DNA of 64,000 nucleotides, taken from positions 1-64,000 of the forward strand of contig WHTY01000008.1 in the NCBI GenBank assembly GCA_009377475.1, written 5' to 3'. Of this stretch, positions 28,133 through 33,788 are shown one piece after another (positions within the stretch are counted from its first letter, which is position 1; every line of letters starts with the position of its first letter). Below the pieces are notes generated by a model that worked only from the letters and a program-made list of their open reading frames with translations, had not been told where the DNA came from and did not search any database. This stretch comes from Actinophytocola sp. GTDB lineage: Bacteria; Actinomycetota; Actinomycetes; Mycobacteriales; Pseudonocardiaceae. The position numbers and the translations under genes are program-made.

Positions 28133-29014
28133 GTGCTGAGCGCCCGCGAGCTGACGAAGGTGTACAACGGCAGGCCAGTCGTCTACAACCTCTCGTTCGA
28201 CCTCCAACCAGGCACGGTCACCGCGTTCCTCGGGCCGAACGGCGCGGGAAAGAGCACCACGCTGCGCATGCTCACCGGGCTGACCCGGCCGACCCATGGC
28301 CAGTCGTGGTTCGCCGGTAAGCCGTTCACCGCATGGCCGAACCCGGCGCACGTCGCGGGCGTGCTGCTGGACGCATCCGCGACCCACCCTGGCCGCACCG
28401 GCCGGTCGCAGCTGCGCAATACCGCGATTCTCGCTGGCGTGCCGACCAGTCGGGTCGACGAGGTCCTGTACGAGGTGGGGCTCGGCGACGCGGTCGGCAA
28501 GAAGGTCGGCAAGTACAGCCTCGGCATGCGGCAGCGGCTCGGGCTTGCGCAGGCGTTGCTGACGCGGCCACCGGTGCTGATCCTCGATGAGCCGATCAAC
28601 GGCCTCGACCCGGAGGGCATCCGGTCGATCCGCACGTTGCTGCGCAGTCATGCCGCCGCGGGCGGAACGGTGCTGCTGTCCAGCCACGTCCTCTCCGAGG
28701 TCGACCAGACCGCCGACCGGGTGCTGATGATCGGCAACGGCCAGATCGTCGCCGACGGTCCGCTCCGCGAGTTGGTTTCCTCGCAGCAGTCGGTGGCCCG
28801 AGGCCCGGACACCGCGCGGCTGGCGCAGGTGTTGCAGGAGGCGGGGATCGGCGTGCAGCCGACGCCGGACGGCGCGGTGCTCGCCAACGCCACCCCGGAG
28901 CGCGTCTCCGACGCCGCCTTCAAGGCAGGGGTGCAGATCCACAACATCACCGAGCACCAACAGAGTCTTGAAGAGATCTTCTTCCGGCTGGCGGGAGGGC
29001 AGCAGCGGCGATGA
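28133..29014 (+). CDS. ABC-2 type exporter ATPase
   Basis: 293 aa. Walker A FLGPNGAGKST, signature YSLGMRQRLGLAQAL, Walker B VLILDEPINGLDPEG and switch LLSSHVLSEV. The C-terminal ~75 residues are a poorly conserved accessory region. It pairs with the permease that overlaps its stop (ATGA). The substrate is unknown; the protein is a paralogue of the ATPase at 48865-49764. The GTG at 28133 has no ribosome site but is preceded by TAGAAT and 6 nt, the spacing of a leaderless transcript. Confidence 0.9.
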   Translation: MLSARELTKVYNGRPVVYNLSFDLQPGTVTAFLGPNGAGKSTTLRMLTGLTRPTHGQSWFAGKPFTAWPNPAHVAGVLLDASATHPGRTGRSQLRNTAILAGVPTSRVDEVLYEVGLGDAVGKKVGKYSLGMRQRLGLAQALLTRPPVLILDEPINGLDPEGIRSIRTLLRSHAAAGGTVLLSSHVLSEVDQTADRVLMIGNGQIVADGPLRELVSSQQSVARGPDTARLAQVLQEAGIGVQPTPDGAVLANATPERVSDAAFKAGVQIHNITEHQQSLEEIFFRLAGGQQRR

Positions 29015-29856
29015 ACGGACAGGCGCCCCACGGCATGACGGCGCACATGCCACCGACGTATCAGCAGCCGATGCCTCCTGCTGGTCCGCCTCCCACGCAG
29101 CAGTTGCCGTGGCAGCATCGCGCCGAGCGGCGCACGTCGTTTCTCGCCCAGGTGCGGGTCGAGTTCCGCAAGCTCGCCGGGACGATCAGCGACCGCATCC
29201 TGCTTGTCATCGGGCCAGTGGTGCTGATCGCGTCGTCGATCTGGGTGACGTTCGCGATGGGGCGGATGTACTCGGCGGCGGATCAGATCCATCCCGCGGT
29301 GTGGTCGCTGCGGCTCGCGCCGATCGTGCTGCACGCCGCGTTGATCAAGCTGATCGCGGGCGAGTGGCAACATCGCAGCGCGCAACCGACGTTGCTGGTG
29401 CAACCCTCACGCGCCCGCTATTTCCTGGCGCAGGCCACGGTGGTGCTCACGCTGTGGGTGTTCTGCGCCGGAGCGCAGATCGCGGTCGCCTTCATCGTCA
29501 CGCCGATCGCGGCCGACCCGACGGCGGGCTATCTGCTCGACTACCGGCCGGGCTGGGTCGTCGGCGTGATCGCGCTCGGGTCGCTGTCCGCCATCATGAC
29601 CGCGTTGATCGTGTCGATGCTGGTCCCGAACGCCGCTGGCGCGCTCGCGATCTACGTCGGTGTCATGCCGATCATGATGATCCTGCAGGGGGCCGCGCCG
29701 GAGGTGTTCATCTGGATTGACCCGCTCGCTCCCGCCCTCACCCTCGCGACGTTGTCGCCCATCGACAGTGCCGCGCCCGCCGTCGCGTCCGGCGTGCTGT
29801 GGGTGGGCCTGCTCGCGCTGTCCGGCTTGCAGGTGTCGCGGCGTGAGGTGGCCTGA
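29011..29856 (+). CDS. ABC-2 type exporter permease
   Basis: 281 aa. A Pro/Gln-rich cytoplasmic N-terminus of ~50 residues precedes about six membrane segments (e.g. ILLVIGPVVLIASSIWVTF, ATVVLTLWVFCAGAQIAVAF, VGVIALGSLSAIMTALIVSM). The product should form the membrane channel with the upstream ATPase. Overlap of 4 nt indicates coupling. Such pairs export antimicrobial peptides, lipids or drugs; nothing here fixes the substrate. Confidence 0.85.
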   Translation: MNGQAPHGMTAHMPPTYQQPMPPAGPPPTQQLPWQHRAERRTSFLAQVRVEFRKLAGTISDRILLVIGPVVLIASSIWVTFAMGRMYSAADQIHPAVWSLRLAPIVLHAALIKLIAGEWQHRSAQPTLLVQPSRARYFLAQATVVLTLWVFCAGAQIAVAFIVTPIAADPTAGYLLDYRPGWVVGVIALGSLSAIMTALIVSMLVPNAAGALAIYVGVMPIMMILQGAAPEVFIWIDPLAPALTLATLSPIDSAAPAVASGVLWVGLLALSGLQVSRREVA

Positions 29857-29864
29857 GCGAGTCG

Positions 29865-30551
29865 CTACTGGGTTGCCAGCGATCCGCCGTTCGGATCGAT
29901 CATCGGGAGCAGTCCCTCGGTGAGTTCCCGCAGCCGGGGGCAGTACTCGGTCATGAACGACTCGGCTTCGTCCGGATCGACATCCAACGTGGCCGGTTGC
30001 CTGATGCGGTCTGCGAGCGACATGCCGAGCTGTTCGCTCAGGGCGCCCGAGAACCGGACAGCCAGCGGGGATCCGGTGTCGACGACGATGTCGCAGCTCG
30101 CCCCCGCGGCCAGCGACAGCGCCTCGACGGCGTAGTAGCGGTCGAGCAGGATCTCGCGGCGGAGGTAGCCGCTGTGGACCTGACCGTTCCAGATGGTCGG
30201 GAACGCCCGAGTGACGGAGGGGTTCGCTGGCGACTCGACCATCACCCTGACCTCGGCGTATGGGCTGCTGGGCGCCGTGTCCAGCGCGCACCACTGCAAC
30301 GAGAAATCAACCGCCTCGCTGGTTCCCGCCAGCCCAAGCTCGCGCAGCGCGTCGGCGTCGAACTGGGAGCAGTCCCCGGCGAACGGATAGGGACGCGATT
30401 CGAGCGACTTGATCTCGTCGTAGGCGACGGCGTCCTCGGGAATGGTCGGCGCGGGCGTGGCGGGGTCAGGTCCCGGCGGGCTGGCACACCCGACGAGGGC
30501 GGTCAGACCGGCGAACACGAGGGCGACTGCGCGCGATGACGATCTCCACAC
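29865..30551 (-). CDS. Putative lipoprotein, DUF3558-like
   Basis: 228 aa. Signal LVFAGLTALVGCAS with lipobox Cys near residue 22, then a Pro/Thr-rich spacer and a globular domain with conserved-looking Cys (FAGDCSQFD, LQWCAL, SCDIVVDTG). Overall it resembles the actinobacterial DUF3558 lipoproteins, but I am unsure. It would sit on the outer face of the membrane. Convergent with the permease gene, 8 nt apart. Confidence 0.7.
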   Translation of the reverse strand: MWRSSSRAVALVFAGLTALVGCASPPGPDPATPAPTIPEDAVAYDEIKSLESRPYPFAGDCSQFDADALRELGLAGTSEAVDFSLQWCALDTAPSSPYAEVRVMVESPANPSVTRAFPTIWNGQVHSGYLRREILLDRYYAVEALSLAAGASCDIVVDTGSPLAVRFSGALSEQLGMSLADRIRQPATLDVDPDEAESFMTEYCPRLRELTEGLLPMIDPNGGSLATQ

Positions 30552-30623
30552 GCGGGCAATTTCATCACGAACGCCGCAGCCGTACCGGCGGTTTCGCGGT
30601 ACTCGTCAGGGGCGATGTTCAGC

Positions 30624-30668
30624 TCAGGGAAAAACCCTGACGATTTTGTCGGTGGTTGTCCTTAGCAT
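30624..30668 (+). promoter_or_regulatory. Hairpin plus PafBC/RecA-NDp-type DNA-damage promoter
   Basis: TTGTCGGTG at 30646, 8 nt, then TAGCAT at 30663 is an exact fit to the actinobacterial RecA-independent damage promoter consensus (tTGTCRgtg-N8-TAnnnT), now attributed to PafBC. Just upstream lies TCAGGG-AAAAA-CCCTGA, a small hairpin or operator. The first gene downstream is the ABC exporter ATPase at 30829, giving a ~155-nt leader with no clear gene of its own. Confidence 0.7.
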
Positions 30669-30828
30669 GGCTTCGGCGTCATCGGGGTGTGACGCCGTGA
30701 CTCGATATCAGGTCGTTCGCCGCCTGCGATATGGCGCGACGTCGTCTGCTCAGGCAGCGCATCGCGGTGGTGCGCTTCCGACGAACGGCCATCAGGAGCG
30801 CTGAGTCGCGCTCATTGCGGAGGGAAAC

Positions 30829-31821
30829 ATGGGAGCTCGCTTCGATGGTATCGCCGTGCGTGCGGAGGGGTTAGTCAAGTCGTTCGGCTCGACCCGCGCG
30901 CTCAACGGCGTTGACCTTGAAATACCGACGGGACAGGTACTGGGGCTCCTCGGCCCGAACGGCGCTGGGAAGACGACGACGGTGCGCATCCTGACGACGT
31001 TGCTCAAGCCGGACGCCGGCAGCGCCATGGTCGCCGGTCACGATGCGCTGGCCGACCCGGAGGCGGTGCGCCGCTCGATCGGACTGTCAGGGCAGTACGC
31101 GGCGGTGGACGAGAACCTCACCGGGTTCGAGAACCTCTACATGGTCGCGCGGCTGTACGGCATGAGCCGGTCGCAGTCCCGCATCCGCGCCCGTGAGCTG
31201 CTGGAACGGTTCCGGCTGACCGAGGACGGCGACCGGCCGTCGAAGGGTTACTCCGGCGGCATGCGGCGTCGGCTCGACCTCGCGGGCGCGCTGGTCGCGC
31301 GGCCGGTTGTCGTCGTGCTGGACGAACCGACGACCGGGCTGGACCCGCGCGGCAGGATGGACACCTGGGAGGTCATCTCCGAGCTGGTGGACGACGGCAC
31401 CACGGTGCTGCTGACCACGCAGTACCTGGAGGAAGCCGATCAGCTCGCGGACTCCATCGTCGTCATCGACAAGGGTCAGGTCATCGCCCGTGGCAGTGCT
31501 GACGAGCTGAAGAACCAGGTCGGCGGCGAACGGCTGGAGTTGGTGGTCGCCGACGCGCGGGATCTGGCGGCCACTGCGCGGGTGCTCGCCGAGGTCGGCT
31601 CGGGCCAGCCGTCGACCGACGCGCACACCCGCAAGGCGGACGTCTTCGTCGACACCGGGCCGAAGGCGCTGATCGAGGCGCTGCGCAGGTTGGACGCCGA
31701 AAGCATCCTCGTCTCCGACGTCGCGCTGCACCGGCCGACGCTGGACGACGTCTTCCTCGCGCTCACCGGCCACGCGGCCGAGGAGGACGCGGGCACGGCC
31801 AAGAAGGGGGCGGTGGCATGA
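30829..31821 (+). CDS. DrrA-like drug exporter ATPase
   Basis: 330 aa. Walker A LLGPNGAGKTTTVRIL, signature SGGMRRRLDLAGAL, Walker B VVVLDEPTTGLDPRGR, switch TTQYLEEAD, and the DrrA-type C-terminal domain (LVVADARDLAATARVLAEV, HRPTLDDVFLALTGH). DrrA-type ATPases drive export of antibiotics and other hydrophobic compounds. The ATG at 30829 has GGAGGG about 5 nt upstream. It overlaps the permease gene by 4 nt. The damage-type promoter at 30646-30668 suggests induction by DNA damage. Confidence 0.92.
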   Translation: MGARFDGIAVRAEGLVKSFGSTRALNGVDLEIPTGQVLGLLGPNGAGKTTTVRILTTLLKPDAGSAMVAGHDALADPEAVRRSIGLSGQYAAVDENLTGFENLYMVARLYGMSRSQSRIRARELLERFRLTEDGDRPSKGYSGGMRRRLDLAGALVARPVVVVLDEPTTGLDPRGRMDTWEVISELVDDGTTVLLTTQYLEEADQLADSIVVIDKGQVIARGSADELKNQVGGERLELVVADARDLAATARVLAEVGSGQPSTDAHTRKADVFVDTGPKALIEALRRLDAESILVSDVALHRPTLDDVFLALTGHAAEEDAGTAKKGAVA

Positions 31822-32639
31822 CCGCGTTGACCCTCGCGCCGCCGCAGGGCAGCGCCATCGCGCGCACGCTGCGCGACGGCGGTGTCGTCACCTGGCGCAA
31901 CCTGATGAACGTCCGGCGCAACCCTGAGCTGCTGCTCGGCGCGACGATCCAGCCGATCATGTTCGTGCTGTTGTTCGCCTACGTCTTCGGCGGCAGCTTC
32001 GGCGGCGGGGCGTACCGGGAGTTCCTGATGGGCGGCATCTTCGCGCAGACGGTGGCGTTCAACTCGGCGTTCACCACCATCGGGATGGCCAACGACCTGC
32101 AGAAAGGCGTCATCGACCGGTTCCGGTCGCTGCCGATGTCACGGATGGCGGTGCTGCTCGGCCGCACCACGGCGGACCTGGCCGTCAACAGTCTCGGCCT
32201 CCTCGTGATGTCGCTGTGCGGGCTGGTCGTGGGCTGGCGGATTCGCGGCAGCTTCACCGACGCCGTGCTCGCGTTCGTGGTCCTGTTGCTGTTCGGGTTC
32301 GTGATGTCCTGGATCGGCGCGTTCGTTGGGCTGCTGTCTGGCAAGGTCGAGGTGGCGCAGAGCGCCGGGTTCATCTGGATGTTCCCGGTCACGTTCATCT
32401 CGTCGGTGTTCGTGGTGCAGACGACGTTGCCTGGTCCACTTCGGACGTTCGCGGAGTGGAACCCGGTGACGGCGGTCGCGGACTCGGTGCGCGGTCTGTT
32501 CGGCAACCCGCCGCTGCCCGGCTTCGAACGGCCGGACGGGTGGGTGGCGGACAACGCCACGTTGTACGCGATCCTGTGCTGCATCGCGATCTTCGCGCCG
32601 CTCGCGGTGGCGAAGTACCGCAAGGTCGCGAGCAAGTAG
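31818..32639 (+). CDS. DrrB-like ABC-2 exporter permease
   Basis: 273 aa, six membrane segments. The ABC-2 membrane signature is visible: early amphipathic VVTWRNLMNVRRNPELLLGATIQP, then VLLFAYVFGGSFGG and FRSLPMSRMAVLLGRTTADL. It forms the exporter with the upstream ATPase (ATGA overlap). Likely a drug or lipid exporter of the daunorubicin-resistance type. Confidence 0.92.
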   Translation: MTALTLAPPQGSAIARTLRDGGVVTWRNLMNVRRNPELLLGATIQPIMFVLLFAYVFGGSFGGGAYREFLMGGIFAQTVAFNSAFTTIGMANDLQKGVIDRFRSLPMSRMAVLLGRTTADLAVNSLGLLVMSLCGLVVGWRIRGSFTDAVLAFVVLLLFGFVMSWIGAFVGLLSGKVEVAQSAGFIWMFPVTFISSVFVVQTTLPGPLRTFAEWNPVTAVADSVRGLFGNPPLPGFERPDGWVADNATLYAILCCIAIFAPLAVAKYRKVASK

Positions 32640-32728
32640 GGCCGACACGGGGGTGTCAGCAGCGGGGTGCGGGGTGTGGCCGAGGGGGTCGCACCTCGCT
32701 CTCGCTGTCTGCGACCCCGCCATGCCCC

Positions 32729-32875
32729 GCGAGTCTCACCTTATTCGCCGCGAGTCTCACCTTGTTCGCGCCGAGTTTCACCTTGTCTGGCGCGAGTTGC
32801 ACGTTGTGGTGCCGCGAGTCCCGCGTTGTTGGGCTGTGTTCCGCGTTGCTGCGTGGTTAGTTCTACGTTCCGGGG
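32729..32875 (+). repeat. Array of about seven 21-nt repeats (family 2)
   Basis: Units of the type GCGAGTCTCACCTTGTTCGC plus one base. The first four are strictly 21 nt; a single extra base shifts the fifth, and the last units are degenerate (GTGTTCCGCGTTGCTGCG, AGTTCTACGTTCCGG). The flanks within 32640-33026 hold no gene. A reverse-orientation relative is at 48625-48687. Confidence 0.8.
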
Positions 32876-32960
32876 TGGTGGTCCGTAGCGTCGTATGCCA
32901 CTTTCTTGCGTCAGTGCTAGAGAACTGTAGACGTCGACAGAAATCGCTAGGCGTTCGAGC

Positions 32961-32991
32961 TTTACCTTGACGTAACGTCAACTTCTACCGT
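32961..32991 (+). promoter_or_regulatory. MerR-type promoter/operator of the TipA-like gene
   Basis: -35-like TTTACC, a 19-nt spacer filled by the palindrome TTGACGT-A-ACGTCAA (32967-32981), then TACCGT as -10. A 19-nt spacer with the operator between the boxes is the hallmark of MerR-activated promoters. The start codon is 36 nt downstream. Confidence 0.75.
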
Positions 32992-33026
32992 GGTTCGTAC
33001 CGACGTCACGAGGGAAGGAGGACGTC

Positions 33027-33788
33027 GTGGCTACCCAGGAGTGGTCGATCCAGGAAATCGCGCGCGTGGCGGGCACGACCAGTCGCACGTTGCGGCACTA
33101 CGACGACGTGGGGCTGCTCGCGCCAAGCCGGATCGGCAGCAACGGGTACCGCTACTACGACCAACACTGCCTCGTGCAGCTGCAACGCATCCTGCTGTTG
33201 CGGGAGCTCGGCCTCGGCCTGCCCGCAATCGCGGACGTGCTCGACGGCGAGCGGGACAGCGCCGCCGCGTTGGCCGTCCACCTGGAGTGGCTGCGCCAGG
33301 AGCGCGACCGCATCGATCGGCAGATCGCGTCGGTGACCACGACTCTGCGCAAACTGGAAGGAGGTGAACAGATCATGGCAACCGAAGCACTCGACGGCTT
33401 CGATCACACCCAGTACAAGGACGAGGTGATCGAGCGCTGGGGCAAGGACGCCTGGGAACGCGGTGACGACTGGTGGCGCTCGCTGTCCGATGAGGACAAA
33501 CACGAGTTCAAGCAGCGGCAGCACGACATCGCCGGCGACTTCACCCAGGCGTTGAAGGACGGCAAGTCCGCCGACAGCGACGACGTCCAGGCGATCGTCC
33601 AGCGTCAGTACGACTGGATCGCGGTCGGCTGGCAGGGCAAGCGCCCGACGGCGGACGAGTTCGTCGGCCTCGGTCAGATGTACGTCGATGACCCGAGGTT
33701 CAGGGCGAACTACGACCGCCACGGCGAAGGCACGGCGGCGTTCATCCGCGACGCCATGGTGGCCTACGCCGAGCGCGTCCTGCGCTGA
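33027..33788 (+). CDS. MerR family regulator with TipAS antibiotic-recognition domain
   Basis: 253 aa. N-terminal MerR winged helix (about 1-75: IQEIARVAGTTSRTLRHYDD, GLLAPSRIGSNGYRYYD), a coiled-coil dimerisation helix to ~115, then a TipAS domain (~120-253: RWGKDAWERGDDWW, YVDDPRFRANYDRHGEGTAAF). TipAL of Streptomyces binds thiopeptides covalently and activates its own promoter; TipAS alone sequesters the drug. GTG at 33027 has GGAAGGAGG before it. An internal start (see 33357-33377) would make the TipAS domain alone. The upstream palindrome implies autoregulation. The nearby DrrAB-type exporter is a possible target. Confidence 0.92.
   Translation: MATQEWSIQEIARVAGTTSRTLRHYDDVGLLAPSRIGSNGYRYYDQHCLVQLQRILLLRELGLGLPAIADVLDGERDSAAALAVHLEWLRQERDRIDRQIASVTTTLRKLEGGEQIMATEALDGFDHTQYKDEVIERWGKDAWERGDDWWRSLSDEDKHEFKQRQHDIAGDFTQALKDGKSADSDDVQAIVQRQYDWIAVGWQGKRPTADEFVGLGQMYVDDPRFRANYDRHGEGTAAFIRDAMVAYAERVLR
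33357..33377 (+). promoter_or_regulatory. Internal ribosome site and ATG for a TipAS-like short product
   Basis: AAGGAGGTGA (33358-33367), a full complement to the 16S anti-Shine-Dalgarno end, lies 7 nt before an in-frame ATG at 33375. Translation from there gives a 137-aa protein (MATEALDGFDH...) equal to the drug-binding domain, as with TipAS in Streptomyces lividans. Confidence 0.75.

Follow-up and report, generated by a model that had tools for sequence, protein, structure and literature searches.

A predicted two-input promoter pairs a PafBC element with a candidate EsrR operator upstream of a DrrAB-type exporter in Actinophytocola

Introduction

PafBC-type promoters of mycobacteria follow the consensus tTGTCRgtg, 8 nt and TannnT (PMC5656591), and go under the name RecA-NDp (PMC6789036). 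According to PMC9380542, conservation of the PafBC motif in Streptomyces venezuelae was not seen in an initial search, and the motif is therefore not universal in the phylum. The EsrISR system of Corynebacterium glutamicum is activated by bacitracin and vancomycin (PMC6975037, PMC9960051). Among the top matches and abstracts of the open-licence literature, no paper was found that connects PafBC to EsrISR or to efflux of the DrrAB type, although 'PafBC' and 'envelope stress' do co-occur, and neither 'efflux' nor 'transporter' occurs in the available text of the papers on PafBC or the mitomycin C response that were searched for both words.

Here we analyse the promoter of a DrrAB-type exporter in a 64,000-nt stretch of DNA from Actinophytocola sp. 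(the window), together with the genome to which it belongs (5.27 Mb searched, 188 contigs, 93% complete) and its relatives. From the comparisons below we consider it likely that drrAB has one two-input promoter, in which PafBC would act at -26 and EsrR at -43 on a common -10 element.

Results

The PafBC-type promoter of drrAB

The initial annotation had placed the exporter ATPase gene first behind an exact PafBC consensus, and both observations were borne out: TTGTCGGTG-N8-TAGCAT at 30646-30668 (+) matches the RecA-NDp consensus with 0 mismatches and keeps its 8-nt spacing, and the first convincing ORF downstream is that of the ATPase (30829-31821). The features of the region are as follows.

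30624..30640, +, predicted EsrR operator TCAGGG-AAAAA-CCCTGA, centre 30632, about -43 from the predicted start
30646..30654, +, PafBC -26 element TTGTCGGTG, exact consensus, conserved in drrA orthologues
30663..30668, +, putative -10 element TAGCAT common to both inputs, 8 nt from the -26 element
30675, +, predicted transcription start, 6 nt after the -10
30675..30696, +, stem-loop GGCGTCA-N8-TGACGCC at the predicted mRNA 5' end (predicted fold)
30819..30824, +, ribosome-binding site GGAGGG (from sequence)
30829..31821, +, drrA, ABC exporter ATPase, 330 aa (TIGR01188; PF00005)
31818..32639, +, drrB, ABC-2 permease, 273 aa (PF01061, 101.4 bits), 4-nt overlap with drrA

The motif has no second match in the 64,000-nt window even when three mismatches are allowed (chance mean 0.80 at up to three mismatches), and the genome density of exact matches corresponds to about 0.0004 expected sites per 300 nt of one strand. 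An ordinary -35/-10 promoter was not found within 30500-30900, nor was an Rfam family matched within 30400-33100. Inspection by eye against the LexA consensus gave no LexA-type box at the drrA promoter.

The 30675-30696 stem-loop, which has seven pairs, begins exactly where the mRNA is predicted to start, while the fold of the whole drrA leader is not exceptional (z -1.07). By eye, this stem-loop is kept in three further genomes of the genus, namely G001, G003 and, with a wobble pair, G002, and is absent in G030. In several orthologues drrA is leaderless, with translation beginning at the position of the predicted start and the motif at -29.

Across the genome we found 15 exact RecA-NDp matches versus 0 with the reversed pattern, including two sites on contigs C9 and C166 that are near-identical copies close to contig ends (290 of 293 bases). 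PafB and PafC are both encoded and adjoin on contig C143, each with WYL and WCX and the second also with HTH_PafC. Furthermore, recA carries a RecA-NDp site with one mismatch approximately 70 nt before its ATG, so that the exact site of drrA is the nearer of the two to the consensus. Just 3' of the other exact sites lie, as judged by eye, genes which we take to be radA, uvrC and members of a family of nuclease-like proteins, and several genes behind these sites have their start codon 6 nt past the -10 (by eye). The nuclease-like family, named by eye, has exact PafBC-type sites at C9:46299, C28:19801, C144:793 and C166:271 (L001, L004, L011 and L012), and several members behind such sites are apparently leaderless.

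Conservation upstream of drrA orthologues

DrrB relatives occur in 100 of 100 related genomes among the matches listed, and 30 of these loci were fetched. In a further set from named genomes (at least 80 loci), drrA adjoins drrB at 78 of 80, and the two loci with no adjacent drrA (L056, L068) were left out. Within 300 nt upstream, 23 of the 78 have a RecA-NDp site with at most one mismatch, compared with 0.06 on average, and never more than 2, when about 200 scrambled motifs were used instead. These 23 loci come from Actinophytocola, a genus of the Pseudonocardiaceae, and from Actinokineospora, Amycolatopsis, Prauserella, Saccharomonospora and Haloechinothrix, presumably all of the same family; the Nocardia, Kribbella and Saccharopolyspora loci of the named set include none with a site within one mismatch. 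When the comparison was confined to 61 distinct orthologue loci (drrA at least 70% identical, duplicates dropped), 36 had the site at up to one mismatch. The drrAB operon sits in several different gene neighbourhoods, and the promoter therefore seems to have travelled with the operon.

With the 15 versus 0 exact sites, the PafB/PafC pair, the recA site and this conservation, a PafBC promoter upstream of drrA is well supported from sequence comparison. The initial annotation, which proposed it, is nevertheless incomplete in that it leaves the adjoining palindrome unexplained.

A palindrome shared with the esr promoter

The palindrome TCAGGG-A5-CCCTGA had been described as a hairpin. The sequence is indeed present at 30624-30640, but as a structure kept by base pairing it was rejected, its arms showing no covariation across the family after near relatives were collapsed. 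An intrinsic terminator is a highly improbable reading of it: a stem of six pairs with a T-rich tail behind it gives one terminator-like hit against 0.3 expected, yet the nearest convincing same-strand gene upstream (29011-29856) ends 768 nt earlier, and five genomes share the spacing to the promoter even though they diverge further upstream. In these five near genomes, which include the present one, both elements are kept within a region that has otherwise diverged, the -26 element being exact in all five and the palindrome differing by one A/T change.

Genome-wide, TCAGGGAAAAACCCTGA has two exact copies with a 5-base centre, one at the drrA promoter and one at C64:67213, and four more versions with a 4-base centre. 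The C64 copy occupies the region that separates a divergent pair of PspC genes. The product of one is a PspC protein whose LiaF-like C-terminus stays below the cut-off; the other codes for a histidine kinase with a PspC domain, and the gene behind it for a LuxR-type response regulator. The locus thus has the layout of EsrISR, in which a PspC-domain kinase is paired with a LuxR-type regulator and a PspC protein is encoded divergently. Further copies stand 5' of PspA, DUF1707 and MMPL genes (Pfam) and of one additional PspC gene. In total, the palindrome occurs at 14 places in this genome, several of them within ORFs, which may be chance occurrences. At one mismatch the element is present in 28 of 150 family genomes, where its neighbours are in part genes without an obvious envelope role.

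The distance to the -10 is also alike at these promoters. TAGCAT at 30663 lies 31 bp from the palindrome centre, as do TAGCAT at the DUF1707 promoter and GAGCAT at the C173 PspC promoter of this genome, and the operator of esrS promoters stands 30.5-32 bp from a conserved GAnnAT (measurable in 27 of 30), which is probably their -10.

To build a motif from outside the genus, we used esrS relatives, which among the matches listed occur in 100 of 100 genomes; upstream regions were taken from 30 loci, and with three of this genus left out, 27 loci of other genera remained. At 26 of these 27 a palindrome with a 4- or 5-base centre and at most one mismatch is found, against a shuffle mean of 0.2 loci. 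A half-site matrix was then built from 50 sites at the 27 loci; these training sites had been selected for resembling the palindrome, which makes the shuffle control important. With this motif, the drrA palindrome at 30624-30640 scores 19.6. Among 44 drrA promoters with a RecA-NDp-like site (110-nt windows, 1% shuffle threshold), 13 pass (0.44 expected), and 8 of 39 pass with the five near genomes set aside. Moreover, 12 of the 13 passing elements have their centre at -13.5 or -14 relative to the first base of the -26 element. We therefore predict, from these sequence matches, that the palindrome is the operator of an EsrR-type envelope-stress regulator, so that the promoter probably has a second input besides DNA damage.

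The composite pattern of palindrome plus PafBC site occurs in 10 of 249 family genomes (reversed control 0), nine times before drrA as judged by eye and once before a rhomboid gene (Pfam; L226, genome G031, contig 32), possibly a second two-input promoter. The five perfect palindromes belong to two genera that are close relatives, and do not count as independent cases.

TCAGGG-type palindromes were also seen 5' of a small-protein gene in two genera (L144-L148, L156-L159); the protein at L144 is DUF4342 (Pfam) and most others look alike by eye, while the small protein at L214 has no Pfam family match.

Promoters with one, both or neither element

Among the 61 orthologues, 13 have both elements, 23 the PafBC site only, 8 an EsrR-like site only and 17 neither, where one or two chance EsrR-like hits are expected because the threshold set on 110-nt windows was applied to 256-nt windows. 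One of the eight, L099, has its EsrR-like site off-position and is probably such a chance hit, and at L074 the best EsrR-like score is likewise off-position, at -39.

That the eight loci lack a PafBC site could be taken to mean that EsrR alone controls the promoter, TTGTCGGTG being a remnant or a chance match with no role in DNA damage. We regard this as very unlikely, given that the -26 element is exact in all the near genomes and that 23 of the 61 orthologues have the PafBC site but no EsrR-like score.

Conversely, PafBC might be the only regulator, and the palindrome a UP-like A-tract aiding RNA polymerase or an incidental repeat. Many orthologues seem to have only an A-tract at the palindrome position, also in a comparison from which duplicates, drrA below 70% identity, and windows more than 85% alike or too near the locus end were dropped. 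Even in the 31 orthologues without an EsrR-like score, A reaches 74-90% at positions -14 to -12 relative to the start of the site, compared with just 1, 3 and 1 of 14 at the other 14 exact sites of the genome, and the lack of covariation between the arms fits this explanation as well. It leaves unexplained, however, the palindrome copy at the esr promoter, the match to the esr-trained motif at one spacing, and the lineages that have the palindrome and the -10 but not the -26 element. In these lineages (L087, L088 and L102 of the Amycolatopsis rifamycinica group, L049 of Thermocrispum, and L042 of genome G028), the -26 element is lost and the spacing from palindrome to -10 is kept; at L090 and L093 that spacing is one base longer (by eye). 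We thus consider control by PafBC alone unlikely, and two inputs at one promoter remain the reading that we favour.

The exporter and its neighbours

DrrA scores 354.9 bits with TIGR01188, above the cut-off of 312.45, and by sequence its best solved relatives, among the best 60 of 151 matches, comprise lipid transporters of the ABCA group together with bacterial ATPases, Rv1218c being one of them. The permease DrrB reaches 56.6 bits with TIGR01247 (cut-off 223.05) and is also under the cut-off of TIGR00025. No anthracycline cluster was found among the genes examined (ORFs of 24-38 kb, ten proteins scanned). The suggestion that the exporter protects against anthracyclines or other DNA-active drugs thus finds no support here, the permease being far below the drrB models. 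Judging by the predicted envelope-stress operator, compounds active on the membrane or the wall are just as plausible as substrates.

The stretch 28133-29856 (+), between a thiolase gene and drrA, encodes another ABC ATPase together with a protein that matches no Pfam family. Downstream of drrB lies a gene for a MerR regulator with a TipAS antibiotic-recognition domain (33027-33788, +), and a homologue occurs within a few kb at several Amycolatopsis, Thermocrispum and Haloechinothrix loci. This neighbour, repeated in part of the family, hints at antibiotic sensing; the palindrome also occurs without it. As owner of the palindrome it was rejected, because L061, L064 and L070 have the palindrome without a matched gene in their flanks and because MerR sites are not usually centred at -43. 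No one regulator gene stands beside drrA in every context, as judged from 40 of the 80 named loci.

Discussion

The two-input promoter that we propose for drrAB would work as follows. Upon DNA damage, PafBC loaded with single-stranded DNA would bring sigma-A RNA polymerase to 30646-30654 and TAGCAT. Under envelope stress, the phosphorylated LuxR-type EsrR, no longer held in check by the PspC proteins EsrI and EsrS, would bind the palindrome at 30624-30640 and activate the same -10, and the two regulators may act singly, additively or in competition.

Instead of activating, EsrR or another protein might bind the palindrome as a repressor and restrain the PafBC promoter. For C. glutamicum, PMC9960051 describes repression of the nlpC operon by EsrISR, which is therefore able to repress as well as activate. 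The centre at -43 and a spacing near that of the esrS, DUF1707 and PspC promoters suit an activator better, and we judge repression to be rather improbable.

More tentatively, and with less than even confidence, the arrangement may be viewed as a compact logic gate, of the OR (or AND) type, that takes genotoxic and envelope stress as its inputs, with the exporter as a general front-line antibiotic pump. The LuxR-type operator would then stand directly 5' of the sigma-adaptation (-26) element, and PafBC and EsrR would use or compete for one surface of RNA polymerase.

If the two-input promoter holds true, an exporter enters the PafBC regulon, and this regulon becomes linked at one promoter to the PspC/EsrISR envelope response. 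In addition, the palindrome provides a candidate EsrR operator for the Pseudonocardiaceae, to which many antibiotic producers belong, and the promoters with one, both or neither element form a natural set for studying sigma adaptation beside an activator.

Overall, the proposed promoter combines already known parts in a new way. With the RecA-NDp or P1 promoters of mycobacteria it shares consensus, spacing and -10, and as in the mycobacterial PafBC system, PafB and PafC are encoded and recA has a site; unlike those promoters, its target is an exporter and a second conserved element lies upstream. Compared with the daunorubicin exporters of the DrrAB type, DrrA is above the subfamily cut-off, whereas the permease is under the drrB cut-offs. 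A 2017 study (Kleine) reportedly places an ABC transporter tied to bacitracin resistance in the EsrISR regulon. The C64 locus has the same layout as EsrISR of C. glutamicum, with a divergent PspC protein and a PspC-kinase with a LuxR-type regulator; this likeness is one of gene layout, and to it the drrAB promoter adds the PafBC element.
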